Below, in pieces: positions 5,588-63,995 of a stretch of DNA of 64,000 nt. The translations under genes were made by a program, and so were the position numbers. Origin of the DNA: Oribacterium sp. NK2B42 (GTDB lineage Bacteria > Bacillota > Clostridia > Lachnospirales > Lachnospiraceae). The DNA is taken from positions 62,001 through 126,000 of the forward strand of contig NZ_AUJX01000004.1 of the NCBI RefSeq assembly GCF_000424445.1, given 5' to 3'. The notes under the pieces are model-generated. The model saw only the letters and a program-made list of their open reading frames with translations. It was not told the DNA's origin and ran no database searches. Position 1 is the stretch's first letter, and every line of letters starts with the position of its first letter.

Positions 5588-5944
5588 GGACAGAACCGGA
5601 GGGTATCCATTTTGAAGTGAGGTTTTTCGGTCGAAAAATCAAAGCAGGCCACTACGAGCTGGTGGGCATCCATCTAAAAACGAGTCGCTTCGACGGAAAA
5701 ATATAAAATCGGACCCCTAAGAGGCTCTAGACCCTCGCCAATGTCAGAGATTTTCTCTTATGAAAACTCTGACTTGGCGAGGGGGGCTAAGGAAAAGGGA
5801 TCAAGCGCCTCTAAGGGGTCCGATTTTTATTTTTCTCGTCTCAGCTCAACGTTTATAGATGGATGCCCACCAACTCTACGTGGCCTGCTTTGATTTTTCT
5901 CTGCCTGAGTTAGCGATCAAAATGGATGACCTCCGGCTCTGTCC
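5588..5944 (+). repeat. Large nested palindromic element, copy A (two layers)
   Basis: The 357-bp sequence folds end to end. The outer arms are 5588-5615 and 5917-5944, with two interior mismatched segments, and a second layer contains GGTGGGCATCCATCT paired with AGATGGATGCCCACC minus one base change. The core at about 5709-5822 contains GGACCCC/GGGGTCC, AGAGGC/GCCTCT, CCTCGCCAA/TTGGCGAGG and TCAGAG/CTCTGA stems. A one-sided unpaired segment, GGCTAAGGAAAAGGGATCAAG, lies at 5785-5805. The element fills the gap between the rny start and the marR stop, ending 11 bp from the latter. The core recurs at 20665-21013 and 63766-63995. No coding content is seen. Confidence 0.9.
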
Positions 5945-5955
5945 TGGTTTGTTTT

Positions 5956-6420
5956 TTACTTTTTATTTTTAGTATGGTCTTTTGAGTTTTCGACACATTC
6001 CAGTGTTCTGTAGAGGAGGTGGTAGAGGGTGCCGGCTTCTTCTTTTGTGAGTTTTATGCAGCTGCCCATTTCTTTAGGGACTTCAAGGGCTTCTTCTCTA
6101 AGCTGAACTCCCTTTTCTGTGATGGTGACATCAAGAGATCTTTCGTCTTCGTGGCAGCGTTCTCTTTTTATGAGACCTTTTGCTTCAAGGCGTTTAAGAA
6201 GGGGAGTCAGGGTGCCGGAGTCAAGGTAAAGGCATTCGCCCAGTTCTTTAACATTGACTCTTTTTTTCTCCCACAGAACCATCATAGCTATATACTGAGT
6301 GTATGTAAGATCGATCTTCTCCAAAAAGGGTGTATATCTTCTGACCAGTTCTTTCGCGCATACGTAAAGCGGGAAACAAAGCTGGTTCTCAATTTTCAGA
6401 GATTCATATTTATCTGACAT
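5956..6420 (-). CDS. MarR-family transcriptional regulator (OhrR-like)
   Basis: This 154-residue winged-helix repressor has the MarR core: YTQYIAMMVLWEKKRVNVKEL leads into the recognition region LDSGTLTPLLKRLEAKGLI, then the wing RCHEDERSLDVTITEKG. The closest described relatives by pattern are OhrR/MgrA-type sensors. One Cys at about residue 15 (ENQLCFPLYVCAKELV) is in the N-terminal position used by OhrR for peroxide sensing. It lies downstream of gpx, trxB and trxA on the same strand, which suits a redox-sensing role (inference). A separate extended -10 in the 105-bp gap before it suggests it can be expressed alone. Palindrome copy A begins 11 bp past its stop. Confidence 0.88.
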   Translation of the reverse strand: MSDKYESLKIENQLCFPLYVCAKELVRRYTPFLEKIDLTYTQYIAMMVLWEKKRVNVKELGECLYLDSGTLTPLLKRLEAKGLIKRERCHEDERSLDVTITEKGVQLREEALEVPKEMGSCIKLTKEEAGTLYHLLYRTLECVENSKDHTKNKK

Positions 6421-6484
6421 TTTAACCTCCGGATAAATGATTCATTTAGCACTCTGCCATGATGGCCTGTCTATCAGTTTCCTT

Positions 6485-6490
6485 ATTGTA
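6485..6490 (-). promoter_or_regulatory. Candidate extended -10 for marR
   Basis: On the minus strand the sequence reads TGCTACAAT, an extended -10, in the 105-bp gap between gpx and marR. There is no good -35 at the usual distance. Confidence 0.4.
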
Positions 6491-6525
6491 GCACAAAGCC
6501 AATAAAATTTTTAAACGTCTTTTCT

Positions 6526-7071
6526 TCAGAGAATTGCGGCTACCTTTTCTTCAACCAGAGCCATATCCATGGTAGGCTCGAAACGATCCACTACATTACC
6601 CTCTCTGTCGATCAGGAACTTTGTGAAATTCCACTTTATATCCGGTGTGCTTTCATAATCAGGATGCTGCTTTCCGATAAAATCCTTCATGAATTCCGCC
6701 GTTTTTCCTTCCCCAAGTCCCTTGAAGCCCTGCTGTGACTTGAGATACTTAAAGAGCTCTGTCTCATTTTCGCCGTTTACATCGATTTTTGCAAACATTG
6801 GGAACTTTACACCAAATCTGCTTGAGCAGAACTTTGCTATCTCCTGCTCGGTTCCCGGTGCCTGATGTCCAAACTGATCGCAGGGGAAGTCCAGTATAAC
6901 CAGTCCCTTATCCTTATACTTATCATACATAGACTGAAGCTGCTCATAATGTGGTGTAAATCCACACTCAGTAGCTGTATTAACAATAAGCATTACCTTG
7001 CCCTTGTACTCCTCAAGTGTTGTTTCATTCTTTTCTTTATCAAGAACCTTGATTTCATAAATATTAGCCAT
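6526..7071 (-). CDS. Glutathione peroxidase-family thiol peroxidase
   Basis: This cytoplasmic peroxidase of 181 residues reduces hydrogen and organic peroxides. In bacteria without abundant glutathione the electrons usually come from thioredoxin. The peroxidatic Cys is C36 in NTATECGFTPHYEQLQ, in the place of selenocysteine. FPCDQFGHQAPGT (62-74) carries the Gln of the active site and a second Cys that could be the resolving thiol, and KWNFTKFLID carries the conserved Trp and Asn. PCDQ replaces the more usual PCNQ. It follows trxB by about 55 bp and trxA lies just beyond, so the donor system and the peroxidase appear to be in one operon. Confidence 0.92.
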   Translation of the reverse strand: MANIYEIKVLDKEKNETTLEEYKGKVMLIVNTATECGFTPHYEQLQSMYDKYKDKGLVILDFPCDQFGHQAPGTEQEIAKFCSSRFGVKFPMFAKIDVNGENETELFKYLKSQQGFKGLGEGKTAEFMKDFIGKQHPDYESTPDIKWNFTKFLIDREGNVVDRFEPTMDMALVEEKVAAIL

Positions 7072-7125
7072 AATTATCTCCTTTCAGATATTTATAAAGA
7101 ATTAGGATTAACAATGAATAAAAAA

Positions 7126-8037
7126 TTACATTGCATCAATATATCCGCATGCTGCCAATGCTGCCACCGCACCATCTGAAGCTGCGGTTGTAAGCTGTCT
7201 CACAGTTTTGGTCCGGCAATCTCCGGCTGTGAAGATGCCTTCAGTGCCGGTTTTCAGGTCTTCGCCGGCTTTTATATAGCCTTTTTCGTCAAGGGAAGCC
7301 ACATTTTCAAATGCTGTATTGTCGGGAGCCTGACCTATGGCTACGAACAGCCCTGAAACTTCTATGGTTCTTGTATCACCTGTATTTTTATTTGTCACTT
7401 CAAGTGATACGAGACCTGATGCATCTTCATTAAGCTTTGTGATGGTGCTGTCCAGAACGAACTCTACGTTATCTTTTGCTTTTAAACGTTCAACTTCCTT
7501 CTGATCCGCGCGGAATTTATCTCTTCTGTGGATCACATATACCTTCTCACAGTAATTGGAAAGGAACTGTGCATCCTCAAGGGCGGTGTTTCCGCCGCCG
7601 TTTACAGCTACCACTTTATTTCTATAGAACATTCCGTCGCAGGTTGCGCAGTATGAAACACCTTTTCCCACAAGTTCCTGCTCATTGGGAAGTCCCAGAG
7701 GACGGTTCTTTGCTCCTGTGGCGAGGATTACAGCTTTACACTCATATTCATTTTGTGAGGTAATGACCTTTTTGACATTGCCTTCGGTTATTATCCCTGT
7801 TACCCTTTCAAATCTGATGTCTGCACCCAGATCCTTTGCCTGATTGTAAAGTCCTGTTGCAAAATCAAATCCTGAAATATGTGCTATTCCCGGATAGTTT
7901 TCGATGTCCGGAGTATTGATTATCTGTCCTCCGTAGGATGAGGCTTCAAGCACCAATGCACTTTTTCCGGCTCTTACGGTATAGATTGCTGCGGAAAGTC
8001 CCGCTGTACCGGCTCCGATTATTATTACATCTACCAT
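7126..8037 (-). CDS. trxB: Thioredoxin-disulfide reductase
   Basis: This FAD- and NADPH-dependent flavoenzyme of 303 residues keeps thioredoxin reduced. Visible are the N-terminal FAD dinucleotide fold GAGTAGLSAA (8-17), the redox-active CATC at 130-133, the NADPH fold GGGNTALEDA shortly after it, and the C-terminal FAD signature GIFTAGDCR. The length is typical of low-molecular-weight bacterial TrxB. It starts 23 bp after the trxA stop, and gpx follows, giving a trxA-trxB-gpx transcription unit. Confidence 0.96.
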   Translation of the reverse strand: MVDVIIIGAGTAGLSAAIYTVRAGKSALVLEASSYGGQIINTPDIENYPGIAHISGFDFATGLYNQAKDLGADIRFERVTGIITEGNVKKVITSQNEYECKAVILATGAKNRPLGLPNEQELVGKGVSYCATCDGMFYRNKVVAVNGGGNTALEDAQFLSNYCEKVYVIHRRDKFRADQKEVERLKAKDNVEFVLDSTITKLNEDASGLVSLEVTNKNTGDTRTIEVSGLFVAIGQAPDNTAFENVASLDEKGYIKAGEDLKTGTEGIFTAGDCRTKTVRQLTTAASDGAVAALAACGYIDAM

Positions 8038-8060
8038 AAAACTATTCCTCTCAATATATA

Positions 8061-8369
8061 TTACTTCAGAAGCTCAAGAACCTGTTCCTTAGGAACAAAT
8101 CCTACTGACTGCTTATAGATTTCACCGTTCTTAAAAACAATAAGTGTAGGAATGGATCTGATACCGTATCTGTCAAGAAGCTCCGGATTTTCATCGGCAT
8201 CCACACTCATAACCTTGAAGCCGTCTGCGGAATCAGCGATCTCAGCGATGATGGGTGAGAGCATCTTGCAGGGTCCGCACCAGCTTGCCCAAAAATCCAC
8301 CAGTACCGGAACATCACTCTTAAGTACCTTCTCATCAAACTCTGCTACATTAATTGCCTGTGCTGCCAT
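8061..8369 (-). CDS. trxA: Thioredoxin
   Basis: This small cytoplasmic dithiol oxidoreductase of 102 residues has the classical active site WASWCGPCKM (C31 and C34) and the cis-proline region GIRSIPTLIVFKNG. It is the first gene of the unit trxA-trxB-gpx and has a near-consensus promoter upstream, overlapped by an inverted repeat. It delivers electrons to proteins such as the neighbouring peroxidase (inference from context). Confidence 0.97.
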   Translation of the reverse strand: MAAQAINVAEFDEKVLKSDVPVLVDFWASWCGPCKMLSPIIAEIADSADGFKVMSVDADENPELLDRYGIRSIPTLIVFKNGEIYKQSVGFVPKEQVLELLK

Positions 8370-8435
8370 ATTTGTTACCTCCGTTATATTATATGAATTT
8401 CATTTGGTTAAAAACTATTGTTAACTTGTGATTAG

Positions 8436-8470
8436 ATTGTACACAACCAATATTAAATTGTCAACAATTT
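8436..8470 (-). promoter_or_regulatory. trxA promoter with an overlapping inverted repeat
   Basis: On the minus strand TTGACA (8459-8464) and TACAAT (8436-8441) are separated by 17 bp, a near-ideal vegetative promoter. A perfect inverted repeat, AAATTGT-CA-ACAATTT (8455-8470), covers the -35. A shorter TTGT-AC-ACAA lies at the -10. These are plausible operators for the MarR protein at the end of the operon, but that link is only inferred. Confidence 0.7.
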
Positions 8471-8510
8471 AATTCTAAAAAATAATTTATAATCTTTGTG
8501 TAATCCTAAA

Positions 8511-8542
8511 AAAGGGGAACACCGATATCGGCGTTCCCCTTT
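8511..8542 (-). terminator. Rho-independent terminator after recX
   Basis: AAAGGGGAACGCCGAT pairs with ATCGGTGTTCCCCTTT on the minus strand and runs into six Ts. It begins a few bases past the recX stop codon. Confidence 0.9.
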
Positions 8543-8545
8543 AGG

Positions 8546-9103
8546 TCAATAATCTTCTTCTATTGAAAGTGCTTTTCTTACTGTGGAATAGGAGAATCCT
8601 TTTCTCATGAGAGATGCGTAAAGTTTTCTTTTCTGTTCTGCATCCAATAGGGAAGGATCTTTGCACTTTTTATTGATGGCAGCTTTAACTGCTCTCATTT
8701 CAGAGTCTTCCGACAGTTCTTCATCATCTTTGAATTCAGCCAAAGCTTCCTTTAAGTCTTTTTGATTCACGCCTCTCTGATAAAGCTTCTGTTCTATTTC
8801 CCGCAGGGATTTTGAACCAGAATAATGCTTTATCAATTGCTTTGCAAATCTCAGATCATTTATATAATCGTATTTTTTCAGGAAGTCTATGGTCTCTTCT
8901 ATGATATCTTCACTGTACCTTCCGGATTTAACCAGTTTGTCTCTGAGCTTTGATTCGGTTTTTGCAGCCTGCTCTATAAGGTAGAGACTGCGTTCCTTGC
9001 ATCGGTTTAAAAGCTTATCATGTTCGGACATCTTGCCGGGATCAAGATTGTAACCCGACACTTCCTCACCATGCTCTTTCAATAAATCGTCTATTGTTTT
9101 CAC
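8546..9103 (-). CDS. recX: Regulatory protein RecX
   Basis: RecX binds RecA filaments and limits recombinase activity. The 185-residue protein has the three-helix tandem repeats of the family: AAKTESKLRDKLVKSGRYSE, then FLKKYDYINDLRFAKQLI, then SLREIEQKLYQRGVNQKDL, and a fourth repeat near the C-terminus (KRKLYASLMRKGFSYSTVRKAL). It lies 135 bp downstream of recA on the same strand, the normal arrangement, and is followed directly by a strong terminator. Confidence 0.93.
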   Translation of the reverse strand: MKTIDDLLKEHGEEVSGYNLDPGKMSEHDKLLNRCKERSLYLIEQAAKTESKLRDKLVKSGRYSEDIIEETIDFLKKYDYINDLRFAKQLIKHYSGSKSLREIEQKLYQRGVNQKDLKEALAEFKDDEELSEDSEMRAVKAAINKKCKDPSLLDAEQKRKLYASLMRKGFSYSTVRKALSIEEDY

Positions 9104-9238
9104 TTTAAAATCTCATCTGTTTAAGCTGTTTCGACTGTTATATTTATCAAAAATATCGGCCGGTTAAGAATCGGTATTTCACATCAACATAATCTTTCTC
9201 AGCATAACGGCGTAGAACATCCTTATTGAATTTCAGTC

Positions 9239-10330
9239 TTATGCTTCATCCTCCGACTCCGAAGCTGCCTTTGCGGCTTCTGCCTCGGCGAATTCATCCT
9301 TCGGAAGTCCGTACTTCTCACGAACCTTGCCTTCAACCTCTGCCATGATTGCCGGATTTGCCTTAAGATATTCCTTGGCGTTCTCACGGCCCTGTCCTAT
9401 CTTTTCACCGTTATAGGCAAACCATGCGCCTGACTTTTCTACGATGTTTTCTTCAACCGCAAGGTCAAGTACATCTCCTGACTTTGAAATACCTTCGCCA
9501 AACATGATATCAAACTCGCACTGTTTAAACGGCGGAGCAATCTTGTTCTTAACTACCTTTACTCTTACACGGTTACCTGCCGCATCACCGTTCTGCTTCA
9601 GGGTCTCAACTCTTCTGATATCAAGTCTTACAGATGCATAGAACTTAAGAGCACGGCCTCCGGTAGTGGTCTCTGGACTTCCGAACATAACTCCGACCTT
9701 CTCACGGAGCTGGTTGATAAATATAAGTATGCAGTTTGATTTTGCGATAATTGAGGTAAGCTTACGTAATGCCTGGGACATGAGTCTTGCCTGAAGGCCC
9801 ACGTGGGAATCTCCCATCTCTCCGTCTATCTCTGCCTTTGGTACAAGTGCTGCTACCGAGTCGATTACAAGGATGTCCATGGCGCCTGATCTTACCATGG
9901 TCTCGGCAATCTCAAGGGCCTGTTCTCCTGAATCTGGCTGTGAAATATAAAGGTTATCAATATCTACTCCGATATCCTGGGCATACTTCGGATCCAGAGC
10001 ATGCTCTGCATCGATGAAGCCTGCAATTCCGCCTCTCTTCTGTACTTCCGACACTGCATGAAGTGCAAGTGTTGTCTTACCTGAGGATTCAGGTCCGTAG
10101 ATCTCTATGATCCTTCCTTTAGGGAATCCGCCGGCTCCCAGAGCTATATCAAGAGAAAGGGATCCGGTAGGTACTGTTTCTATATTGAGGTTCGCTGCTG
10201 AATCTCCAAGCTTCATAATGGAGCCTTTTCCGAAATTCTTCTCTATCTGTGTTAAAGCAACATCCAGTGCTTTTAATTTTTCTTCGTGATCCTGGTTAAA
10301 GTTAACCGGGGTTTTTGTGGTCTTTGCCAT
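9239..10330 (-). CDS. recA: Recombinase RecA
   Basis: This ATP-dependent strand-exchange protein of 363 residues acts in recombinational repair and triggers the SOS response. The Walker A motif GPESSGKT is at 79-86. Other landmarks are the RecA signature [13 protein letters not shown], the Walker B-type stretch [12 protein letters not shown] and the L1/L2 region [23 protein letters not shown]. The C-terminus is Glu/Ala-rich and acidic, as usual. GGAGGG lies 6-7 bases before the ATG. A consensus-like promoter and a short palindrome lie upstream. Confidence 0.98.
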
Positions 10331-10343
10331 GTTTGCCCTCCGT

Positions 10344-10398
10344 AAAACATATGTTTTGTGTTATTTTGTATTTTAATCTTATTTAGATTCGATGTCAA
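10344..10398 (-). promoter_or_regulatory. recA promoter and leader palindrome
   Basis: On the minus strand TTGACA (10393-10398) and TAAAAT (10370-10375) have a 17-bp spacer. Between the promoter and the ribosome binding site is a perfect 14-bp palindrome, AAAACATATGTTTT (10344-10357). It does not match the Bacillus LexA box GAAC-N4-GTTC, so calling it an SOS operator would be a guess. Confidence 0.7.
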
Positions 10399-10471
10399 GG
10401 AGTATAACACAAGGTTTTGCTCAATAATATACTCTAAATTCAGACTATATGTAGTTTACTCTAGGCTATGA

Positions 10472-10633
10472 GCAAAAAAATGCAAGGGACGTGTGCCGGC
10501 CCACGAGATTGAAAGAACAGCCTGACCGGAATGTCCGTGCCCGATCACACTTACGTGTGTCGTTCACGGACATTCCGGTCAGGCTGTTCTTTCAACTCGC
10601 AAGCCTAGGCACCCATCCCTTGCATTTTTTTGC
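10472..10633. repeat. Large two-layer palindrome of a second type
   Basis: The outer arms GCAAAAAAATGCAAGGGA (10472-10489) and its exact complement (10616-10633) enclose mismatched segments of about 20 bases. Inside are perfect 31-bp inner arms (10509-10539 and 10565-10595) around a loop with a small CACAC/GTGTG stem. It shares the nested plan of the 5588-5944 element but no clear sequence. The outer arms carry T7 runs in both directions, so it could terminate transcription from either side. It lies between recA and the TolC-like gene. Confidence 0.85.
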
Positions 10634-10678
10634 AATTTACTTTTACTAATTCCCTGATGCATCCCGATAAGCTATTAT

Positions 10679-10726
10679 AACCCCACCGAAGATGATTCTC
10701 GAAGACGAGAACCATCCCGATGGGTT
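10679..10726 (-). terminator. Hairpin after the second TolC-like gene
   Basis: AACCCCACCGAAGATGATTCTCG pairs imperfectly with the complementary run ending at 10726 around a four-base loop. The tail on the minus strand (TTATAATAG) is not a strong T-tract. It is the first stable structure after the efflux operon. Confidence 0.45.
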
Positions 10727-10757
10727 TATGGAAATATTATTTCGCATTTTAAAAAGA

Positions 10758-12041
10758 TCACACAAAACCTTTCAGGGCGGCCTGGTAATTTAGGACGGCG
10801 GCGGAGGCGGTGATTTGGGACATGTTGGCCTTTGCTTCGGAGGCGATGTACTGGACCAGGGCGGCGGAGTACTCGCTGTTTCCGACTGTTCCTACGGCGT
10901 AGCTTCTTTCGGCCTGGCCTTTTTGTCTGGCCGCGAGGGCATAACCTGCCTGGGCGGCTGCATTATCGGCTTCTGCTTTGATAACGGTGTTGTAGAGGTC
11001 GGACATGGAGACATTGAGGTTTTCACGGGCTTCGTTTCGGCTGATGTCTGTTTTTGTGTAGCCTGTGATGTTTTTGTCTTCTGTGCTCTGGGCTGTACCA
11101 TAGGCAACGTTATGAAGTCGGGCCTCGGCTATGTCGTTATCCAGATTTCTGGTGTAGATGTATCCCTGATCGTAAGGGGGCATGGCACCGATGGAGACAT
11201 TGGCACAGTTGGAGGAATTCCAGCCGAGGATCAGGGCCATCTTATCTCGTATGCTCCGCATATTTTCCTTATTCTTGTTAAGTTTTATCGTGAAGGATTT
11301 GAGATCGGCCTCAGCTTTTTTCACCTGAAGATCCGTAGCCATGCCGACAGCCCGGGACCTGAGTGTTGCATCATAAACTGTCTGGTACATGTCCACCTGC
11401 TTCTGATACATTTTTTCAAGTTCGGCAAGTGACTGATATCCGATAAATGCCGCGTTCATGCCGGTAATAACGGATACTTTGCTGCCATGCATATTCATTT
11501 TTATCTTGTTTACGGTGCTTGTCAGACCGCTTTCGGCGCTGGATTTTGCCACATGCAGGGTGTCTGTGGATTTACTGCTGCTGATCATAGCACTGACCAT
11601 CTTTATGGACTGATCATAGGCTTCCTTTTCGGCTGCATTGCTTGTGTTGTTTTTTTTGTCTTTAAGATCAGCTATAACGCCGTTTAAATCCTCTATGGAG
11701 CCGGTCAGACTGTCCACTATGGTGTTCATGTCAACGGCAATATTGTCTATGGCGGCATACTGCTGCTGTGCAACTACGCTTCTGTACTCCACCAGATTTA
11801 CAATCTCATCGTAATCGATGACATCGTCCTGAAGTCTTGCCCAGGTGTCGTCGTCCATACCGTTGGGGCGTCCCTGGGAGTCCACTCCGGTGAGACTCTG
11901 CTGCTCGGTATATGGGTCATGCACCGGCACCAGGGTTCTGGTTCCGGGCTTAGGGTCTGATGCCGCCAATGTTGCATTGCAGGACATCATAACCAGAGTC
12001 AACGCAATGCCTGCTGCAAACCCAATATTGTTTCTCTTCAT
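10758..12041 (-). CDS. TolC-like secreted protein, second copy
   Basis: I start this at the ATG at 12041 (MKRNNIGFAAG), which has GAGGTG six bases upstream, rather than at the longer frame from 12071. It gives 427 residues with a cleavable signal peptide ending near NATLAASDP. The body is alpha-helical with heptad-rich stretches (SIEDLNGVIADLKDKKNN, and later LRSRAVGMATDLQVKKAEADLKS). It has the outer-membrane-efflux-type motif in which a helix restarts after a short turn, and the C-terminal QKGQAERSYAVGTVGNSEYSAAL is typical of that family. It is the last gene of the efflux operon and a distant paralogue of the gene at 12185. In a lineage without an outer membrane its site of action is unclear. 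Confidence 0.72.
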   Translation of the reverse strand: MKRNNIGFAAGIALTLVMMSCNATLAASDPKPGTRTLVPVHDPYTEQQSLTGVDSQGRPNGMDDDTWARLQDDVIDYDEIVNLVEYRSVVAQQQYAAIDNIAVDMNTIVDSLTGSIEDLNGVIADLKDKKNNTSNAAEKEAYDQSIKMVSAMISSSKSTDTLHVAKSSAESGLTSTVNKIKMNMHGSKVSVITGMNAAFIGYQSLAELEKMYQKQVDMYQTVYDATLRSRAVGMATDLQVKKAEADLKSFTIKLNKNKENMRSIRDKMALILGWNSSNCANVSIGAMPPYDQGYIYTRNLDNDIAEARLHNVAYGTAQSTEDKNITGYTKTDISRNEARENLNVSMSDLYNTVIKAEADNAAAQAGYALAARQKGQAERSYAVGTVGNSEYSAALVQYIASEAKANMSQITASAAVLNYQAALKGFV

Positions 12042-19896: not shown

Positions 19897-19958
19897 TATG
19901 ACGATTTTTTTATTCCGGAGATAATCTAACCTATTAAATATTGGAGGACAAAACCTTG

Positions 19959-20663
19959 ATGAGTGAATTCACAGTTAACATGAACGAGTATCTTCCTCTC
20001 AGAGATCTCGTTTTCAATACTTTGAGACAGGCAATTCTTAAGGGGGAACTGAAGCCCGGTGAGCGTCTTATGGAGATTCAGCTTGCGGAAAAGCTTGGGG
20101 TTTCCCGCACACCCATAAGAGAGGCGATTCGTAAGCTGGAGCTTGAGGGTCTTGTTATCATGATTCCGAGACGTGGTGCCGAGGTTGCCAAGATTTCCCA
20201 CAAGAGTTTACAGGATGTTCTTGAGGTTCGCGGGGCTCTTGAGGAGCTTGCCACAGATTTAGCCTGTCAGCGTATCAATGACGAGGAATTAAAGGAGCTT
20301 GCAGATGCGGAGGACCGTTTCAAAAAGGTTGTTGAGAATAATGGCTCTGAAATGGAGATTGCGGAGGCTGATGAGGCCTATCACGACATTATTTACAAGG
20401 CTACCCGCAATGATAAGCTTGTTCAGATGATCAATAATCTTCGTGAGCAGATGTACAGATATCGTCTTGAATACATCAAGGATGAAGCTCAGAGGGGTAC
20501 TCTCATCAATGAGCATGAGAAGATTCTTGAGGCTATCAGGATCCGTGACATCATCCGTGCCAAGACTCTCATGAAGGAGCATATCGACAATCAGGAGTCT
20601 ACGGTTTCCCAGAACCTTGAGTGGGAAGCAGAGGCGGAAAGCAAAAAGCAGCGGAAGAAGTGA
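19959..20663 (+). CDS. GntR-family regulator, FadR (FCD) subfamily
   Basis: The protein has 234 residues from the ATG at 19959; an in-frame TTG just before it, at better spacing from TTGGAGG, is an alternative start. The N-terminal winged helix is clear (LRQAILKGELKPGERLMEIQ, then LAEKLGVSRTPIREAIRKLE). The C-terminal all-helical FCD domain has the expected Asp and His positions (AYHDIIYKATRN, then EHEKILEAIRIRD) that bind a metal and an organic acid in this subfamily. The ligand is unknown. Palindrome copy B begins one base past the stop codon. Confidence 0.9.
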   Translation: MSEFTVNMNEYLPLRDLVFNTLRQAILKGELKPGERLMEIQLAEKLGVSRTPIREAIRKLELEGLVIMIPRRGAEVAKISHKSLQDVLEVRGALEELATDLACQRINDEELKELADAEDRFKKVVENNGSEMEIAEADEAYHDIIYKATRNDKLVQMINNLREQMYRYRLEYIKDEAQRGTLINEHEKILEAIRIRDIIRAKTLMKEHIDNQESTVSQNLEWEAEAESKKQRKK

Positions 20664-20664: not shown

Positions 20665-21013
20665 GAGTCAGAGGACATCAATTTAAAAACGGGTCGCTGT
20701 GAAGAAAATCCAGAATTGGAGACCTACGAACCGGCGGGCATCCATCTAAAAACGAGTCGCTGTGAAGAGAAAAATCTAAAATCAGACTCCTAAGAGGCTC
20801 TAGACCCTCGCCAATGTCTGAGTTTACTTTTATGAAAACTCAGACTTGGCGAGGGGGCTAAGGAAAAGGGATCAAGAGCCTCTAAGGAGTCCGATTTTGA
20901 TTTTTCTCGTCACAGCTCAACGTTTTTAGATGGATGCCCGCCGGCTCTAAGGTCTCCAATTCTGGATTTTTCATGTACTTTCTCAAAGTTTTTAAATTGA
21001 TGTCCTCTGACTC
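20665..21013 (+). repeat. Large nested palindromic element, copy B (two layers)
   Basis: This 349-bp element lies between two convergent gene ends. The outer arms (20665-20690 and 20988-21013) are an exact 26-bp inverted repeat. Inside are TCCAGAATTGGAGACCT with its complement, and GGCGGGCATCCATCT with its complement. The core has the same plan as copies A and C, including CCTCGCCAA/TTGGCGAGG and the one-sided segment at 20856-20876. The central stem here is TCTGAG/CTCAGA rather than TCAGAG/CTCTGA, a compensating change. It starts one base after the GntR stop and ends 32 bp before the next stop codon. Confidence 0.92.
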
Positions 21014-33434: not shown

Positions 33435-33582
33435 GAGTATTATGAAAAAAATCTTATTAACTATTGATAACCCATTTCGTTATCATGTCTTTACTATAAA
33501 AATCATCAATGAACAAACTATGTTAATCTTTTGAATAATTTGTAAACAATTGTGAACGGGATATGAACGATGTAATCCGGTC

Positions 33583-33652
33583 GAGCGGTCGGGCATCCAT
33601 TTAAAATCGAGGCGGCTCGGCTTTACGATTTTAAATGGATGCCCGACCGCTC
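33583..33652. repeat. Minimal palindrome related to the nested element family
   Basis: Perfect 27-bp arms (33583-33609 and 33626-33652) enclose a 16-base loop that contains GCGGCTCGG. The arms include GGGCATCCAT-TTAAAA, shared with the arms of the 5588-5944 and 20665-21013 elements, but the core is missing. It ends seven bases from the DUF624 stop codon. Confidence 0.8.
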
Positions 33653-33659
33653 TACTCTA

Positions 33660-34424
33660 CTATTCATCCTTGTTTTTTAAATTCTCCAAATCACGTTCTG
33701 TTTCAGAAGAAGAACCTTCTTTCAGGGTGCCGTCGAGGTTCAGGTCCTGTAGGATGGGGCGGACTTCTTTATCCCTCGAGGGATCTTGTTTCGGCATGTA
33801 TTTTTCGAAGATGTGGTCAAGCATGGTGGAATTTATCCAGGCGAGGAGTGGGTAGCCCATAAGTACCATGAAGGCGGTTATCCAGGCCATGTAGAAGAGA
33901 GCCACGTAGCCGATGGCGATGATGATGACATCACTAATCAGCATTGACAGGGTGGATCCCAGGTATCGTATGGACATGTAGGCTGCATTTGTGACGGTGT
34001 TTTTTACAGTGTTGTCAAATCTGCTGAGGAGGGGCCATACATAGGTGAATACAAATATCCAGATGACCATCATGGCTATGGTGATTCCCTGCAGCAGTAT
34101 TCTTGTGACTCCTGCACCGGCAAGAACACTTCCGAAGAAGTTAAAGTCAAAGACAAGAAGCATGATGAGCAGAAGCATTGGAATCCATATGATTGTGGCC
34201 TGCTTGAAATTCAGCTTGAAGGATCTGAAAAACATTTTAATGTCTCCGTCATCCTCGTTTCTCACTATCTTTAATGTACAGTAATACAATGCTGTTGTTG
34301 ATGCCCCTATGGTTACTATGGGGAGTGAACATAAAATCCACAGTATATTAAGTAATATCATATCTCCCAGTCTTCCGACGAAGCGCCAGATGGGATTATC
34401 GTAATTAAAAAAGCCCTGAAGCAT
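33660..34424 (-). CDS. DUF624 (YesL-type) membrane protein
   Basis: This 254-residue protein has about five to six hydrophobic helices. The N-terminal motif NYDNPIWRFVGRLGDMILLNILWILCSLPIVTIGASTTALYYCTLKI is the hallmark of the family. The C-terminal 45 residues are hydrophilic. YesL relatives occur with sugar transporters and YesM/YesN sensors; the function is unknown. The neighbours here are a BCCT transporter upstream and a palindrome downstream, with the YesM/YesN pair about 6 kb away. Confidence 0.88.
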   Translation of the reverse strand: MLQGFFNYDNPIWRFVGRLGDMILLNILWILCSLPIVTIGASTTALYYCTLKIVRNEDDGDIKMFFRSFKLNFKQATIIWIPMLLLIMLLVFDFNFFGSVLAGAGVTRILLQGITIAMMVIWIFVFTYVWPLLSRFDNTVKNTVTNAAYMSIRYLGSTLSMLISDVIIIAIGYVALFYMAWITAFMVLMGYPLLAWINSTMLDHIFEKYMPKQDPSRDKEVRPILQDLNLDGTLKEGSSSETERDLENLKNKDE

Positions 34425-59500: not shown

Positions 59501-60227
59501 CATGCTTTATATCCCTGCTGTCCTTATAAATAAGTGTCTTTATGGCGTACTCCGGCTTACGGCTTGAATTGTATTTAATGTATATGGGGCGATACTTTCT
59601 GTAATCCTTCGCCCGGCTTTTGTGTGAACCCCGGGGCTGGAAAATGTAGAAGTAAGAAGGCGCGAACTCCTGGAATTCGTTTTCCTTTACCAGAAGACCT
59701 ATCTTCTCGGTTTCGTCAGAGGGTCCCGGCAAACGCTCATCAGTATAGAAATTAAGGGGCATCTTTAATTCGGGAACGGGATAATACATCCACTCCTTTG
59801 AATCGGGCTCACTCTCCTTTAACCTTTCCCGAAGCGACTTAACCTCTGACCAGCGCATATATACGGTGTCTCCATCTTTTTCTCCGGAGGAGAGACGGTC
59901 GATGTCCAGGGCATTCTGCATACCAAGCATGATGCAGCCACCCTCTTTAAGCCAGGTGCCGGAGAGAGACCTGAACATACCTTCGAGATCACCCTTGAAT
60001 ATCTTAAGTACTCTTTCTGTGAGAACAGGTATGATAATGTAATCATATACCGTCTCATCAAGTCTTCTTGAGACATTACGGACTCTCTTTTCAAGAAGTT
60101 CTCTGAAGGGAGCAGTATACTCCTTGTCTCCCAGTACCAGAACTGAGGCATCTCTCTCCATGCCTGTGGTCATATCGTCAAAATAGAACCACTCTATCAA
60201 ATTGGTCATATGGTGTGTGAAACTCAT
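56526..60227 (-). CDS. Giant fusion: methyltransferase-like, kinase-like, coiled coil, GT2 and GT4 domains
   Basis: The 1233-residue protein is not a known single family. Residues 30-170 look like a shortened class I methyltransferase (VLVLG, DYIIIPVL, WLKEGGCIMLGMQN, MYYPVPELKMP and FYTDERLP) that lacks the glycine-rich cofactor loop. Residues 180-390 fit a protein-kinase-like fold: AIK (K230), D343 and N348 in the catalytic loop, and D360 in TLIDCEW. Residues 440-515 are a coiled coil. A GT2 domain (593-830) has VIPCYNQ, IIADDVSTD, FFLNNDTKVNAGW and YYEDTDLAFEV. The rest (865-1225) is a GT4-like domain with GHDLHSLR, FVGGFGHPPNKDG and PLRYGAGVKGKVVEALHAG. It overlaps the ABC ATPase gene by four bases. 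The layout resembles O9a WbdD (methyltransferase-kinase-coiled coil) joined to two glycosyltransferases. Confidence 0.82.
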   Translation of the reverse strand: MSFTHHMTNLIEWFYFDDMTTGMERDASVLVLGDKEYTAPFRELLEKRVRNVSRRLDETVYDYIIIPVLTERVLKIFKGDLEGMFRSLSGTWLKEGGCIMLGMQNALDIDRLSSGEKDGDTVYMRWSEVKSLRERLKESEPDSKEWMYYPVPELKMPLNFYTDERLPGPSDETEKIGLLVKENEFQEFAPSYFYIFQPRGSHKSRAKDYRKYRPIYIKYNSSRKPEYAIKTLIYKDSRDIKHVAKSGITPEANAHIDSLTAKAKEQREVNPTLEVLKAEETSHALGDFQRLSYQIYPYLEGKNLGRLLADLIKDGVAPVKELVESVDMVIGKRDGEIKPANLDCLFDNVIMVNGKPTLIDCEWVLTEAVDVRFLQFRILYYWYLSYRNELSYDDLFGFMRNFGFTTPECNELLDKEQEFQVYVHGDGRDSNINAYYENKVTVHRFNELKGRLAVAENDLIVLGQRNEENKIALKKEREVNRLTAVHVANLTKVIEIHERDIETLIKEREYYRLRMGIRGKLSQKISNAYNRRFPVGSRKRKVLYYIGQSFRHPVKTLPLFFTAEGKNRIRGDFNIGSAYSEYGKVSFEKTDTPLVSIVIPCYNQINYTYQCLISIKENTDFQKTPYEVIIADDVSTDATREIGFYADNLVIARNRENMGFLKNCNQAAEIAKGKYIFFLNNDTKVNAGWLDSLVSLIESDDSIGMVGSKLVYPDGRLQEAGGIIWSDGSGWNYGRLQDPEEPEYNYVKEVDYISGAAIMIRTDLWKEIGGFDERFAPAYYEDTDLAFEVRKHGKKVVFQPKSVITHFEGVSNGTDTQDTSGLKHYQVVNQEKFKEKWAEELKNQSVNDGNPNPFAARERGQNSKYILVVDHYVPTWDKDAGSKLDYQYMKLFKSVGYKVKFLGDNFAHEEPYTSELQQMGIEVLYGNTMQAGIWEWIDKNKKFLNIAYLNRPHIATKYIDYFRDNTDVKVIYFGHDLHSLRLMREYELNHDENTREDAEYWHNIEYGVMRKADASYFPSEVEAEIVRKEDPTINVKGITAYVYDEPAVLDEDYANKQGLLFVGGFGHPPNKDGLLWFANEILPKIRARIPDVVLNVAGSKADEEVLALNNRPDINVLGFVTIEQLDELYRKNRVVVVPLRYGAGVKGKVVEALHAGAAVVTTSCGAEGIPEAETALHIQDTEDGFAEDVIKLYNNSYDIENMSRRAVQFIKDYYSPEGAWNKIRDDFESDYRK

Positions 60228-61693
60228 TGTTTGTTATGCCTTTCCAGAGTCACCTTCGACTCCATGTCGTAAACACCGACTGTGTTTTTGTTTGAGAGCA
60301 CCGTAATGGATGCTACATCATATTTTCTGTCATAGACTACGTGCTCTCCCTGCTCAAAACCTGTGCAGGACATGCTTAGAAGGTACTCGCCTCCCTGCAG
60401 CGTCATCCGCTGTGTGAAGGTGCAGACATATTCGTCCCCTTCCTTTACGGGATCTATGCTGCACTCCTCGATCATTGTATTGGTGCCTGTCAGATCCGCA
60501 CCCCTCTTGTCTTTTATTGTGAATGTAAAAATCGGAGCTTCCAAAGGCGCATTGAAACGTATCTTTTCCTTTATGGAGAAGGTCTCCCCCTTAACTATAA
60601 CGTTTGTCACCTTGCCTCTTTGATCAAGGATTCCGAGATCATAAATTGAAGCTCTTCCGTCACCATAATGCTGAAGATTAGGGTTCAGATTAAGTTCATC
60701 CTGCATCAGATGTCCGTTGTTATGATGGATATCATCCTTTGGATCGTTACGACCTTCTTCCGGTCCGAATGATTCTTCCGCATCCCTCATAGCGGCTCCG
60801 CCAATGCTGTCCACTCCGAAATCCTGACCCTCTATAAAAGAAACAGCGGCCTCTGCATCCCGTTTCTTCTCAATATTCTTTTTATCCTCTTCCGTAAATC
60901 TTCCTGCAAGGATCTTTTTATAAAGATCCACCATTTCTCCGGGCTTTCCCTCAGCGATTTTTTCACCTTTATTTATAAGGACAACTCTGTCACAGTATTT
61001 CATTACGGATCCGAGATCATGAGTAACCATCAGAATGGTGGTTCCGTTCCTGCGAAGCTCATCCATGCGGTGATAGCACTTGGCCTGGAAGAAAACATCT
61101 CCTACGGACAGAGCCTCATCCACAATGAGTATCTCAGGATCCATGGCCACATACATGGCGAAAGCAAGTCTTACGAACATACCGCTGGAATAGCTTTTTA
61201 CAGGCTGGTTCACAAAGTCCCCGATATCTGCAAAGTCCAGGATTTCCTGAAGCTTCTCATCCATCTGCTCCTTTGTGAAGCCCATCATGGTTCCGTTCAT
61301 GTAGACATTCTCAATACCGGTATAATCCGGATTAAACCCGGCACCAAGCTCAAGAAGGGCACATATTATACCCTTTATGTTCACCTCACCATCTGACGGG
61401 GTAAGGACTCCGGTTATGATCTTAAGGATAGTGGATTTACCGGAACCGTTTGTTCCGATGATTCCCACAGACTCACCTTTACCGACCTTGAAATTTATAT
61501 GATTAAGAGCATAAAAATCACGATGATAATTCTTATGGGTCAGGCTGACAGCCTCTTTAAGTCTGTCTATAGGCTGATCGTAGAGCCTGTAGATCTTTGT
61601 CACATCCTTTACGTCTATGACAAAGTCGCTGTCCACCATACTTTCATTATCACCGGCTTTTTCGCTTGTGTTTTTTATTTCATTATCTGCCAT
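60224..61693 (-). CDS. wzt: ABC polysaccharide exporter ATPase with Wzt-like C-terminal domain
   Basis: I start at the ATG at 61693, giving 489 residues. The nucleotide-binding domain has Walker A GTNGSGKST, signature SYSSGMFVRLAF and Walker B ILIVDEALSVGD, as in TagH/Wzt proteins. After about residue 290 there is an acidic linker, then a beta-rich domain (345-480; DLGILDQRGKVTNVIVKGETF, FTFTIKDKRGADLTGTNT, GGEYLLSMSCTG) of the Wzt_C type. In Gram-negatives this domain recognises the capped end of the glycan to be exported. The ATGA overlap with the giant transferase gene implies coupled synthesis. No matching permease (Wzm/TagG) is in the window. A hairpin and T8 run directly precede the start. 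Confidence 0.9.
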   Translation of the reverse strand: MADNEIKNTSEKAGDNESMVDSDFVIDVKDVTKIYRLYDQPIDRLKEAVSLTHKNYHRDFYALNHINFKVGKGESVGIIGTNGSGKSTILKIITGVLTPSDGEVNIKGIICALLELGAGFNPDYTGIENVYMNGTMMGFTKEQMDEKLQEILDFADIGDFVNQPVKSYSSGMFVRLAFAMYVAMDPEILIVDEALSVGDVFFQAKCYHRMDELRRNGTTILMVTHDLGSVMKYCDRVVLINKGEKIAEGKPGEMVDLYKKILAGRFTEEDKKNIEKKRDAEAAVSFIEGQDFGVDSIGGAAMRDAEESFGPEEGRNDPKDDIHHNNGHLMQDELNLNPNLQHYGDGRASIYDLGILDQRGKVTNVIVKGETFSIKEKIRFNAPLEAPIFTFTIKDKRGADLTGTNTMIEECSIDPVKEGDEYVCTFTQRMTLQGGEYLLSMSCTGFEQGEHVVYDRKYDVASITVLSNKNTVGVYDMESKVTLERHNKQ

Positions 61694-61701
61694 AAAAAAA
61701 A

Positions 61702-61733
61702 TTCTCCAGATGTGCGTATGCACATTTGGAGAA
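61702..61733 (-). promoter_or_regulatory. Attenuator-like leader hairpin at the start of the ABC exporter gene
   Basis: On the minus strand TTCTCCAAATGTGC, an ATAC loop and GCACATCTGGAGAA form a 14-bp stem (one mismatch), followed by eight Ts and then the ATG. The stem holds the only ribosome binding site, CTGGAG. It can work as a terminator, as a site that hides the ribosome binding site, or as a protein operator. A weak -35/-10 pair (TGGCAA, 17 bp, TATTAT) lies just upstream. Confidence 0.7.
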
Positions 61734-61794
61734 TATAATAACATATTTCTTCATGTTTTGCCACACCGGTCACAGTTCGGACTAGACATATGCA

Positions 61795-61874
61795 GTCCAG
61801 ATCCGGAGGACATCCATTTTAAAACGGGTCGCTACGGCAGAAAAAACTTAAACAGCCCACTAAGCGGCTCTAGG
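61795..61874 (+). repeat. Half copy of the nested palindrome family
   Basis: CCGGAGGACATCCATTTT, AAAACGGGTCGCTACGGCAG, AACAGCCCACTAAGCGGCTC and TAGG appear in the same order as the left half of the 5588 and 63766 elements. The centre and right half are missing. The left half runs straight into the 3' end of the secreted protein gene and supplies its stop codon (61870-61872). Confidence 0.8.
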
Positions 61875-62664
61875 CTCCCGGTGTCTGGTATGTAGCTATG
61901 TTACTGCTGCCGGTGGATGGAAGTGTTCCGTTGTAACCAACGGCTGAGCTGTTAGTGGTTGCCGGTGCGGAGGATGTTGTATTCTGGGTTGTGGCAGCTT
62001 TAGTGCTTGTGTTTGCTGCCGCTGTAGTTCCCGTGGAAAGTGACTTTCCTACTTCCGGGCTTGCTGCATTGGTTACCAGATGACCTTCGCTGACTCTGTA
62101 GCTGTAGGTTCCGGTCTGTACGCCCTGAGTTCCGGATATCTTTGCTGTTACGCTGTTTCCGGGACCGACATAGGTTCCATCAGCTATTCCGGTGGAGTTT
62201 GCCAGTGTCTGATCAGAGGTCTGTATCGTAGGAAGCTGGCTGTTGGTAAGGGAGCTTGCCTTACTGTTGGAAATAACGTGATCCACAACAGTTACCATAT
62301 TGGTGTTCATACCGATATTGGCTGCTGCGGTTGCCGCTGCATTAAGAGCAGCAGTACTTTCACTGGTGGTATTGCCTCCCCTTGCCGCTTTTGCTGCATC
62401 TGCAGCCGCATTGGCTGCCTCTATGGCTGCAGCCGTATCAGTTTTTGTCACTGCCTGTGTTGTAAGAGTAAGATTTGGAGCAGGTGTTCCGTCGGGAGCC
62501 GGCTGTCCTGCATAAACAGTGGTCTGCACTCCGGTTGCTGTATCGGTCCAAACGGCTATGGGACCATACAAAGTATACTGCCAGTCGGAAAGACCTGTCA
62601 TACTCATAGAAATTGAAAGAGCCATAACGGCAATGGCAGTGTTTCTTATTTTATTAAGCTTCAT
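61870..62664 (-). CDS. Secreted Ala/Thr/Ser-rich protein of unknown function
   Basis: The ATG at 62664, with CAGGAG upstream, gives 264 residues. An N-terminal signal peptide (RNTAIAVMALSISMSMTG) is followed by a short region with two Trp (SDWQYTLYGPIAVWTD) and long Ala/Thr/Ser-rich low-complexity stretches. The segment GIADGTYVGPGNSVTAKISGTQGVQTGTYSYRV near the C-terminus could be a small beta-domain. No known family is recognised. There is no LPXTG motif or membrane helix at the C-terminus. The 3' end merges with the half palindrome, so the reading frame may once have been longer. Confidence 0.72.
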   Translation of the reverse strand: MKLNKIRNTAIAVMALSISMSMTGLSDWQYTLYGPIAVWTDTATGVQTTVYAGQPAPDGTPAPNLTLTTQAVTKTDTAAAIEAANAAADAAKAARGGNTTSESTAALNAAATAAANIGMNTNMVTVVDHVISNSKASSLTNSQLPTIQTSDQTLANSTGIADGTYVGPGNSVTAKISGTQGVQTGTYSYRVSEGHLVTNAASPEVGKSLSTGTTAAANTSTKAATTQNTTSSAPATTNSSAVGYNGTLPSTGSSNIATYQTPGA

Positions 62665-62711
62665 TACTGTCTCCTGAAATACTCTGTGATTTTTTGAGTA
62701 TATCACAGGGT

Positions 62712-63011
62712 TTATTCAATGGTCAGAATGTCTGAAAAACCTGTTACATTGAATATCTCATCGATTTCCTCGGAAACATTTCTGATAACCATTTTTCCCT
62801 GCTTATTCATCTTCTTCTGAGCTGAAAGAAGAACACGAAGTCCGGCACTGGAGATATACTCAAGTGCTGCAAAGTCAAATGTAAGCTCAGTTACGTCCTG
62901 GATTTCTGCATTGATCTCCTGCTCAAGCTGAGGTGCTGTTGTTGTATCAAGGCGTCCCTCAAGTACGAGATCTAATTTGCTGTCCTCTTTTTTCTTTGTG
63001 ATGTTAAACAT
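62712..63011 (-). CDS. STAS-domain anti-anti-sigma factor-like protein
   Basis: This 99-residue protein is a single STAS domain, like SpoIIAA/RsbV: LVLEGRLDTTTAPQLEQEI, ELTFDFAALEYISSAGLRVLL and the closing MVIRNVSEEIDEIFNVTGF. The conserved phosphorylatable Ser is one of S54/S55 in YISSAG. Such proteins bind an ATPase kinase partner and release a sigma factor or other target. A likely partner is the gene starting at 63663, 34 bp upstream. Confidence 0.92.
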   Translation of the reverse strand: MFNITKKKEDSKLDLVLEGRLDTTTAPQLEQEINAEIQDVTELTFDFAALEYISSAGLRVLLSAQKKMNKQGKMVIRNVSEEIDEIFNVTGFSDILTIE

Positions 63012-63045
63012 ACTATTTCTTCCTTTTCTGTTTTTATAGTTTTAA

Positions 63046-63663
63046 TTATTTACATATTATAGTCAGATCAACATGATCATTCTTTACACCAACTATAACA
63101 TCTTTTGCAAGACTTGCAACTATAGACTTTTCCAGTTCGTCACTGGCATCTTCCATTTCTTCTCCCTCAGAGTCCTGAATCGTACCTCTGTAGTTCTCAA
63201 GTGACCACATCATGGGGACTCCTGCTGCGGGGTACTCTCCCATGAGTCCCATGGACATAAAATCATATCCTACGCCGTACTCCTGCTGAAGCTTTGCGCT
63301 TTCATCAAAACTCAAAAGTCCGTTTTGGATGATATCGCTTATTTTTCCCATAAAGCCTTTTGCCGCTGCGTTTTCATGGCTTGTGGAAACGGAGAGCAAT
63401 GCTTCCTTTTTTCCTTTGTCCATGATGGTTTCTGCCTGAAGTCTTACCCTGAATTCTCCGTTTTCTTCTTCTATCCAGAACAGGGCCTCAAAGTCTCCGG
63501 TCATGGCACGCACCATACCTAAGGTTTCTTCACAAACAAGTCTCAAGTGAATGGCCTTTTTGTTTTCCAGTGCTCTGCTTCTGATGTATTTATCAACTGC
63601 GTTCAATGCTTCTTCGGTGCTTTCATCTCCGCCGTTGATCCTGATTTCACTCATTTTCTTCAT
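63046..63663 (-). CDS. Degenerate RsbW-like (HATPase-type) protein
   Basis: From the ATG at 63663, after AAAGGAG, the protein has 205 residues. The first third resembles the histidine-kinase-type ATPase of anti-sigma factors, with HLRLVCEETLGMVRAM in the place of the N-box, but the conserved Asn is replaced and no clear G-boxes follow. The final strand KNDHVDLTIICK fits the fold's end. The middle contains a loop with repeated Met/Gly (SMGLMGEYPAAGVPMMW). Its position beside a STAS protein suggests a switch pair. It may bind without kinase activity. Confidence 0.6.
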   Translation of the reverse strand: MKKMSEIRINGGDESTEEALNAVDKYIRSRALENKKAIHLRLVCEETLGMVRAMTGDFEALFWIEEENGEFRVRLQAETIMDKGKKEALLSVSTSHENAAAKGFMGKISDIIQNGLLSFDESAKLQQEYGVGYDFMSMGLMGEYPAAGVPMMWSLENYRGTIQDSEGEEMEDASDELEKSIVASLAKDVIVGVKNDHVDLTIICK

Positions 63664-63765
63664 GCCACGATCTCCTTTCATTCATACTTTTTCTATTTTA
63701 CACCCTAAGTGGCTGGATGTCTCAAAAATTTTTTAACTTTATCATACAATTCGGAGGAATGGGGC

Positions 63766-63995
63766 GGTCAGAGCATGGGGGCAGCCGGTTAAAAACGGGT
63801 CGCTGCGGCGGAAAAATCTGAAACAGCCCCCTAAGCGGCTCTAGGCCCTCGCCAATGTCAGAGATTTTCTCTTATGAAAACTCTGACTTGGCGAGGGGGC
63901 TAAGGAAAAGGGAACCAAGAGCCGCTAAGGGGGCTGTTTCTGATTTTTCTCGTCCTCGCTCAACGTTTTTAACCGGCTGCCCCCATGCTCTGACC
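63766..63995 (+). repeat. Palindromic element, copy C (single layer)
   Basis: This 230-bp element has perfect 25-bp arms (GGTCAGAGCATGGGGGCAGC and on) and the same core as copies A and B, including CCTCGCCAA/TTGGCGAGG, TCAGAG/CTCTGA and the one-sided segment at 63898-63919. It has one arm layer where A and B have two. The stems CAGCCCC/GGGGCTG and AGCGGC/GCCGCT differ from copy A in both strands, keeping the pairing. The next gene lies beyond the window. Confidence 0.9.

Follow-up and report, generated by a model that had tools for sequence, protein, structure and literature searches.

A genus-restricted family of long palindromes in Oribacterium, probably a non-autonomous, MITE-like mobile element

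Small non-autonomous intergenic repeats whose transcripts fold as long stem-loops, such as ERIC/IRU, YPAL, RPE and NEMIS/Correia, measure about 100-200 bp, and for YPAL empty and filled sites have been compared (PMC2229807). REP/REPIN sequences are described as dispersed palindromes whose stem changes are complementary and which sometimes lie inside other palindromes; in the same account REPs are 20-40 bp long, end in GTAG or CGTC and are often observed with G-T pairs in the stem (PMC3733652). Palindromic REP sequences in turn receive insertions of IS1397, ISKpn1 and IS621 (PMC1525189), and IS66 is given an inverted repeat starting GTAAGCG together with 8-bp direct repeats (PMC11946415). Structured single-stranded DNA elements of the attC type, with their RYYYAAC box, are reported as conserved hairpins that function as DNA and are also caught by RNA searches (PMC8632094), and templated repair has been reported for hairpins (PMC8794818).

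The palindromes analysed here come from a window of 64,000 nucleotides, the whole stretch of DNA under study, of Oribacterium sp. NK2B42 (hereafter the host genome). They resemble the ERIC/YPAL-type repeats as small intergenic repeats that are probably non-autonomous, but belong to another taxon, are longer (210-283 bp, and 357 bp in the nested copy A) and combine a conserved unpaired motif with a covarying stem of almost pure Watson-Crick pairs. Dispersal, covarying stems and nesting in palindromes are shared with REP/REPIN, whereas the GTAG/CGTC foot, the 20-40 bp size and the frequent G-T pairs are missing and no examined RAYT locus carries the element. IS1397, ISKpn1 and IS621 bear a transposase, unlike the Oribacterium element, a short sequence that is itself a palindrome and whose copies nest within one another. 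The likeness to IS66 lies in an inverted repeat beginning GTAA and in the 8-bp duplications seen at two copies, but the Oribacterium repeat reads GTAACAG. The ends of attC sites carry paired RYYYAAC / GTTRRRY boxes, which are absent from the hairpin ends as read by eye. GCTCAAC or GCTTAAC, fitting RYYYAAC, occurs inside the 3' arm of the host copies, not at the end.

Copies in the window and distribution of the family

Three palindromes (copies A, B and C, Table 1) occupy the positions assigned to them in an earlier sequence-only reading, and their folds are real, with minimum free energies of -214 (A), -223 (B) and -166 kcal/mol (C), where 100 dinucleotide shuffles of each average -103, -91 and -77 (z-scores -19.0, -22.1 and -19.7, or 19 to 22 SD below shuffles). 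That reading had counted three full copies; all three do fold, but in A and in B one copy is nested within another. The outer module of copy A is repeated, starting at 5589 (family D3). Copy B follows the stop of ORF 19941..20663 with one base between, and its ortholog in genome G012 (L061) is one un-nested copy; the site of copy C in G012 is without a full element. The compensating base changes quoted earlier for the three copies are present, but copy A additionally contains broken pairs, two of which (e.g. GCGCCTCT opposite AGAGGC) are intact in its orthologous copy L053, which has one broken pair of its own. The short form ends just before the stop of ORF 34424..33660 (-), and full copies stand at the orthologous site in KHPX15 (L081) and RUI013 (L095). 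In neither copy A nor copy B does a U-tract directly adjoin the foot of the stem.

Table 1. Palindrome features in the window, with the basis of each assignment and the matches to R1
Feature	Position	Strand	Description	Basis	R1 match
Copy A	5588..5944	+	Nested palindrome: full element at the apex of an older copy that is partly deleted	Folding, R1 match, outer module	5661-5871, 228 bits (cmsearch)
Copy A, inner full element	5661..5871	+	Model core GGNGGGC to GCCCNCC	cmsearch	
Copy A, 5'-arm CTAAG	5717..5721	+	A.A mismatch against the 3' arm	Sequence	
Copy A, CTAAGG, unpaired 3' bulge	5787..5792	+	Conserved GCTAAGGAAAA		
Copy A, 3'-arm CTAAGG	5811..5816	+		Sequence	
Copy B	20665..21013	+	Nested palindrome, inner element centred in an older copy	Sequence, folding, R1 match	20733-20942, 225 bits
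Short form	33580..33655	none	Outer arms retained, centre deleted, traces of both internal-loop sides		
5' half copy	61796..61881	+	Without the 3' half; contains the stop codon of ORF 62706..61870 (-)		
Copy C	63766..63995	+	Single element whose arms are 100% complementary over their outer 32 bp	Folding, R1 match	63776-63985, 224 bits

The palindromes form a real family, as had been proposed, with further copies in the genome: of 22 BLAST matches, 15 are full or near-full copies, and the remainder are fragments, a further piece of L014 and hits to the same palindromes on the reverse strand. The core measures about 210 bp (210 positions); counting the outermost terminal repeats, the element can reach about 283 bp. 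Matches occur in 9 of 17 Oribacterium genomes, host included, and not in the other 8, and number 15-30 in each of G010-G013. An exact-pattern scan of 84,980 species genomes returned 46 stretches, all in Oribacterium or unnamed Lachnospiraceae records. A covariance model search across the bacterial family matched one of 299 genomes, the host, a weak negative with 8 candidates scored per genome; plasmids and phages were unmatched by a single 226-base query, and viral contigs gave 0 hits with a strict pattern. So far the family has been seen only in Oribacterium and close relatives.

Orthologous copies are tallied separately in the counts of 72, 75, 76 and 77, which are therefore not counts of independent events. 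Alignment A1 excludes L014, which carries an insert, and alignment A3 excludes L014, five loci that failed the E cut (L056, L060, L074, L082, L120) and 12 G-handle loci (L053, L054, L061, L062, L065, L067, L068, L072, L073, L075, L076, L077), six of which are identical to named loci.

Site polymorphism, termini and candidate enzymes

The family is probably a genus-restricted, non-autonomous, MITE-like mobile palindrome, its whole length forming one hairpin that is kept in Watson-Crick pairing. The copies are short and multicopy, are present or absent at the same sites in different genomes, and in a subset share their terminal repeat (TIR) with other mobile elements of the host genome, as is the case for MITEs; they also nest, and two of them carry 8-bp duplications (TSDs). 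When seven host sites were queried in six relatives, five (L004, L005, L009, L011, L015) were without the full element in at least one relative, L015 being occupied in G012, and L006 and L010 gave no resolved state. Relatives show compact or unrelated hairpins at the L004 and L015 sites. L099 in KHPX15 is filled, the matching L097 in RUI013 is a bare outer palindrome only, and just the left end remains at that site in the host genome; some 'empty' sites may be deletions instead of never-occupied sites. Nesting, in the element's own kind or in other palindromes, is seen in copies A and B and in L006, L010, L099 and L109.

Some copies end in the 14-nt repeat GTAACAGTTCAG(CC). The TIR GTAACAGTTCAGCC is matched at 10 or more of 14 positions in 31 of 153 flanks (controls: 1 farther out, 2 with the reversed motif), and matches of at least 9/14 cluster about 36 nt outside the core. 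It is found also on contig-end IS fragments and around other interiors, 5 of the 9 listed pairings of which have duplications of 7-8/8. A match to a known transposon end had been named in advance as counting against an undescribed element, and what we find is a weak form of this, a terminal repeat common to mobile elements that are themselves uncharacterised. Perfect 8-bp TSDs flank two S9M_St_59 copies, AAGTAAAC (L107, by script) and AAATAAAG (L084, by eye), both of which also carry the TIR. Across the 76 copies with two full flanks, TSDs are overall no commoner than in mixed-flank controls (8/8, 2 vs 0.4; 7/8, 14 vs 10.4); of the two 8/8 scores, that of L060 lies 58 nt out, away from any TIR, and where the TIRs are best preserved (L109, L099, L103, L010, L006) the score is only 3-5 of 8.

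The search for a partner enzyme identified no transposase for the family, and the contig-end IS fragments with the TIR gave no Pfam match and no NCBIfam match above chance. IS66, suggested as a driver by the GTAA ends and 8-bp duplications, is not supported: the 24 IS66 loci of the genus are without the TIR (best score among the PF03050 loci 11/14, about the background rate, in loci reaching at most ~1500 bases past the match and in some cases cut by contig ends). IS66 matches occur in 10 of 17 genomes, partly following the element, and also without it in G009, G014 and G016. A RAYT-driven REP was also set aside: Y1 genes exist, yet searching the 8 Y1/RAYT loci examined with R1 gave 0 matches, even when E values up to 1 were allowed. 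Y1 was unmatched in G004, G006, G007 and G013, which hold 1, 2, 1 and 15 element matches.

Recognition by shape would be another route to mobility. We consider it rather improbable that the family is mobile DNA read by its shape, with a 79-bp stem, arm sequence free under Watson-Crick pairing, a fixed A.A mismatch and CTAAGG, and insertion into hairpins, those of its own kind among them, which would make palindromes grow from the inside. Also unlikely is an enzyme that binds the folded single strand or a cruciform through its conserved unpaired bases and inserts the element into other hairpins, like Y1 transposases or integron integrases in binding folded DNA. Such recognition would fit the nesting, the presence of all three CTAAG motifs in 61 of 72 copies and the conservation of the A.A mismatch and GCTAAGGAAAA (92-100% across 72 copies), which persist in S9M_St_59 (G011) while its outer arms diverge from those of the host genome. 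It is opposed by the distribution of Y1, which does not follow the element, by non-S9M flanks, in which no base exceeds 70% outside the paired ends, and by the two copies with 8-bp TSDs, which Y1 enzymes are not known to make.

Covariation and the nature of the fold

Across 72 aligned copies, 70 of 79 base pairs show two-sided change, and stem cells with two-sided change outnumber one-sided ones by 956 to 39 (127 to 26 in RNase P of the same genus). The covariation between arms pointed out in the sequence-only reading is far above controls (0 of 500 shuffles, plus slid-partner controls), but that it marks a selected RNA fold is not supported: G-U pairs fill 68 of 5665 stem cells (1.2%; 6 of 1103, or 0.5%, in 14 host-genome copies) against 156 of 1359 (11.5%) in same-genus RNase P, about tenfold fewer, and structured RNA is therefore not favoured although the covariation is confirmed. 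Stem pairs change without restriction between the four Watson-Crick types, and this, together with rare G-U, is what one would expect of DNA hairpins, of two-strand folding or of templated repair of an arm. Where an RNA or a DNA hairpin element had been proposed, the DNA option fits and the RNA option is disfavoured by the scarcity of G-U.

Among the 75 copies with two neighbouring genes, 56 lie between tandem genes, 15 between convergent and 4 between divergent ones; 49 of the 56 tandem copies are closer to the stop of the upstream gene than to the downstream gene, with median distances of 29.5 and 105.5 nt, and 32 are on the gene strand vs 24 against it (p 0.35). Read-through would transcribe copies placed 3' of genes in this way, and this, with the very strong covariation and the conserved unpaired motifs, speaks for a structured non-coding RNA, a transcribed locus with a selected RNA fold acting as a dispersed RNA gene or 3'-UTR element. 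We nevertheless judge that quite unlikely given, besides the G-U deficit, the about random strand, the patchy presence inside one genus, the occurrence of centre-deleted forms and the results with Rfam 15, which agree with the earlier failure to recognise a known RNA class (0 matches at gathering score in the window, only 4 sub-threshold matches in six further loci).

Ten ortholog pairs (790 pair cells; one pair orthologous via one flank only) contain 75 double Watson-Crick changes vs 35 broken and 8 G-U single changes, the cores of L007 and L110 differ solely by one A:T to T:A swap, and certain ortholog differences resemble replacement by another copy, not point repair. The first two of these observations, and the templated hairpin repair described in PMC8794818, would agree with mutational palindromes that have no selected function, one arm being restored by template switching on the other so that both co-change and G-U pairs vanish. 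This reading is very unlikely in view of the replacement-like differences and of the internal loops, A.A mismatch and 3' bulge; templating would remove or invert these features, and nearly all 72 copies retain them in one relative orientation.

Proposed cycle of the element and its significance

As a MITE-like mobile palindrome, the element would be moved in trans by an enzyme recognising GTAACAGTTCAG-type ends, and would insert in most cases shortly past the end of a gene, where it would often enter or adjoin a terminator-like hairpin. Given the hairpins that relatives show at the L004 and L015 sites, its target could be terminators or merely tolerated 3' regions. Copies would then decay through central deletion to short hairpins, some of them resembling intrinsic terminators. 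Pairing would be maintained at the DNA or both-strand level, given that copies take either orientation to the upstream gene about at random. Selection acting on the hairpin, a templating process in which one arm corrects the other, or the two together would maintain it. The asymmetric loops and three CTAAG motifs are probably under selection, as a putative binding site.

Covariation is often taken as decisive for structured RNA, yet this Oribacterium family covaries overwhelmingly and resembles mobile DNA. The near absence of G-U pairs offers a simple, testable discriminator between DNA and RNA folds, and the filled, shortened and empty orthologous sites form a natural series in which to study how long palindromes originate, how their arms stay matched and how they collapse to terminator-like hairpins.

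Distribution in the window, the genome and the genus

The sequence-only reading had described three giant palindromes, A, B and C, with compensating changes in paired bases; its coordinates are correct, near end-to-end folding is seen for all three, and the changes it quoted are present in the sequences. Their folding energies lie 19.0, 22.1 and 19.7 SD under the shuffle mean, respectively (100 dinucleotide shuffles each). A and B are nested, each holding a full element at the apex of an older copy built from the same module; PMC10969869 describes insertion of one element into another for pneumococcal BOX, RUP and SPRITE.

Features of the palindrome family and of other elements (window positions unless a locus is named)
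Feature	Position	Observation
Palindrome A	5588-5944	nested
Palindrome B	20665-21013	nested
Palindrome C	63766-63995	
Short form	33580-33655	centre deleted
Half copy	61796-61881	5' half
Other long inverted repeat	10509-10595	36-nt arms, 94% complementary, TTGAAAGAACAGCCTGACC...; flank of L006 contains the similar TTGAAAGAACAGCC
L313		8-bp duplication offset by two bases
L315		8-bp duplication scores 7/8
L318	505-605	near-perfect palindrome of ~100 bp within the TIR family
L319	546-645	near-perfect palindrome of ~100 bp within the TIR family
L261 (G000:C1:190800-195600)	ORF 2135-2926	263-aa Y1-type (RAYT-like) gene

Across the host genome (3.79 Mb, 95 contigs), a 131-base core query gave 22 matches. 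Fifteen of these are full or near-full copies; the others are fragments, another piece of copy L014 and reverse-strand hits of the same palindromes. An outer-arm motif common to the copies occurs 50 times when one mismatch is allowed (27 on the forward strand and 23 on the reverse, with none for the control), and its smallest forms, in at least 12 places, are bare hairpins such as GGGCATCCATTTAAATGGATGCCC, one of which (L024) lies, by eye, directly 3' of a stop codon. Nine of 17 genus genomes, the host included, contain matches; four relatives have 15-30 each, and the other eight genomes lack them. The proposed covariance-model search of Lachnospiraceae, using 210 positions and 79 pairs built from 14 host copies, recovered the host genome but no other among 299 family genomes (eight candidates scored per genome). 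All 46 stretches from an exact-pattern scan of species genomes fall in Oribacterium or Lachnospiraceae records. Plasmids, phages and viral contigs gave no match.

With neighbouring genes taken as long ORFs by simple calling, the 75 copies with two neighbours lie between 56 tandem, 15 convergent and 4 divergent gene pairs. The upstream stop is the closer neighbour at 49 of the 56 tandem sites (medians 29.5 vs 105.5 nt), where copy strand is mixed (32 and 24).

Covariation and the scarcity of G-U pairs

In the 14 host copies, 98.2% of cells are paired and 37 of 79 pairs show two-sided change (108 two-sided cells), a covariation reached by none of 500 shuffles. A larger set, 72 copies from several species, is 96.3% paired, with both sides changed in 70/79 pairs, 956 two-sided against 39 one-sided cells, and a covariation score of 0.495 vs 0.125 for shuffled and 0.037-0.073 for slid partners; these copies were aligned by fitting them to the model, which tilts the result towards the structure.

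The earlier proposal of selection on a fold, of either a structured RNA or a DNA hairpin element, stands as to covariation, but the pairs themselves do not favour the RNA option. G-U pairs make up 68 of 5665 cells (1.2%; 6/1103 in host copies), against 156 of 1359 (11.5%) in RNase P RNA taken from 15 genus genomes, aligned and folded like the host copies, which has 26 one-sided and 127 two-sided cells. Two-sided Watson-Crick changes without a G-U path number 576/927 in the palindromes vs 46/122 in RNase P. For REP repeats, PMC3733652 takes G-T stem pairs as a sign of possible function as RNA; by the converse argument, the pattern of sequence change points to one of three things: a hairpin of DNA, a requirement that each strand be able to fold, or templated repair in which one arm is corrected from its partner. 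The last process is treated in PMC8794818.

In ten orthologous copy pairs (one matched by a single flank only), both bases changed to another Watson-Crick pair 75 times, pairing was broken 35 times and a single change gave G-U 8 times; the closest, L003/L119, differ by two single pair-breaking changes only. Some pairs look like replacement of one copy by another, so the changes may stem from repair or from conversion. Plain template switching would not keep asymmetric features in a single relative orientation, as is the case in all 72 copies, each of which aligns to the whole model. Those features include the 3' bulge GCTAAGGAAAA (conservation 92-100%) and an A.A mismatch (99-100%), and CTAAG in the 5' arm, the bulge and the 3' arm occur together in 61/72 copies; unpaired columns as a whole are no better conserved than paired ones (0.79 vs 0.80).

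Occupied sites, termini and candidate enzymes

When seven host sites were looked up in six relatives, the full element was absent from at least one relative at five (L004, L005, L009, L011, L015), and L006 and L010 gave no resolved occupancy. The relative G012 is occupied at the L015 site, bears a compact hairpin, AAAAAAGGAGGGTAAGCCCTCCTTTTTT, at that of L004, and has what may be a short remnant at that of C. One site is filled in KHPX15 (L099), holds only the outer palindrome GTAACAGTTCAGCCGGGGC...GCCCCGGCTGAACTGTTAC in RUI013 (L097), and only its left end in the host. Short and full copies also occupy orthologous sites at L045/L091 and at window position 33580 vs L081 and L095; the window form retains parts of both internal-loop sides, which identifies it as a deletion product. 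A structured repeat of 80-90 nt (hairpin, CGCTCAAAGCCGCGYGGCTCCC, variable hairpin, GGGCAG) was noted at L014, L095, L060, L074, L016 and L018, lying at differing positions inside the palindromes and also outside them, with 17 matches in the host.

A 14-nt terminal repeat (TIR), GTAACAGTTCAGCC, scores at least 10/14 in 31 of 153 palindrome flanks (controls: 1 farther out, 2 with the motif reversed), and matches of at least 9/14 concentrate ~36 nt outside the core; AACAGTTCAGCC has 154 genomic matches at up to one mismatch vs 11 for the reversed pattern. Two palindromes of S9M_St_59 combine the TIR with perfect 8-bp duplications (AAGTAAAC at L107; AAATAAAG at L084, by eye); in the remaining copies, those with the best TIRs included, such duplications are not above control. 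The TIR also flanks other interiors (minisatellites, 100-bp palindromes) and contig-end IS fragments, the latter without a family match above chance. Among nine TIR pairings (L295 and L312 being the same row, L325 the palindrome copy L109), five have 8-bp duplications of 7-8/8 (L313, L315, L316, L318, L320). Loci L313-L320 form a second mobile family with this TIR, 8-bp target duplications and interiors from short hairpins to minisatellites.

Neither candidate driver was supported: the 24 IS66 loci compared from the genus are without the TIR, and the palindrome is absent from the eight Y1 loci examined. The L261 Y1 gene has four copies of another palindrome, CCACCGGGGACGGTTCTCGCC/GGCGAGAACCGTCCCCGGTGG, in the surrounding 4.8 kb, apparently a separate REP/RAYT system; in three genus genomes (L260, L262, L263) a Y1-type gene of ~185-210 aa adjoins what we take to be a comM-like gene.

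A probable mobile hairpin of Oribacterium

Bacterial MITEs with long hairpins are already known (PMC2229807). The open-licence literature yielded no description of the Oribacterium family, only other elements or topics. To our knowledge, its size, its fixed unpaired motif and a covariation nearly free of G-U pairs are novel. The evidence best supports a MITE-like palindrome, restricted to the genus and kept as a Watson-Crick hairpin, which would insert behind genes and then decay to short hairpins, some of them terminator-like.
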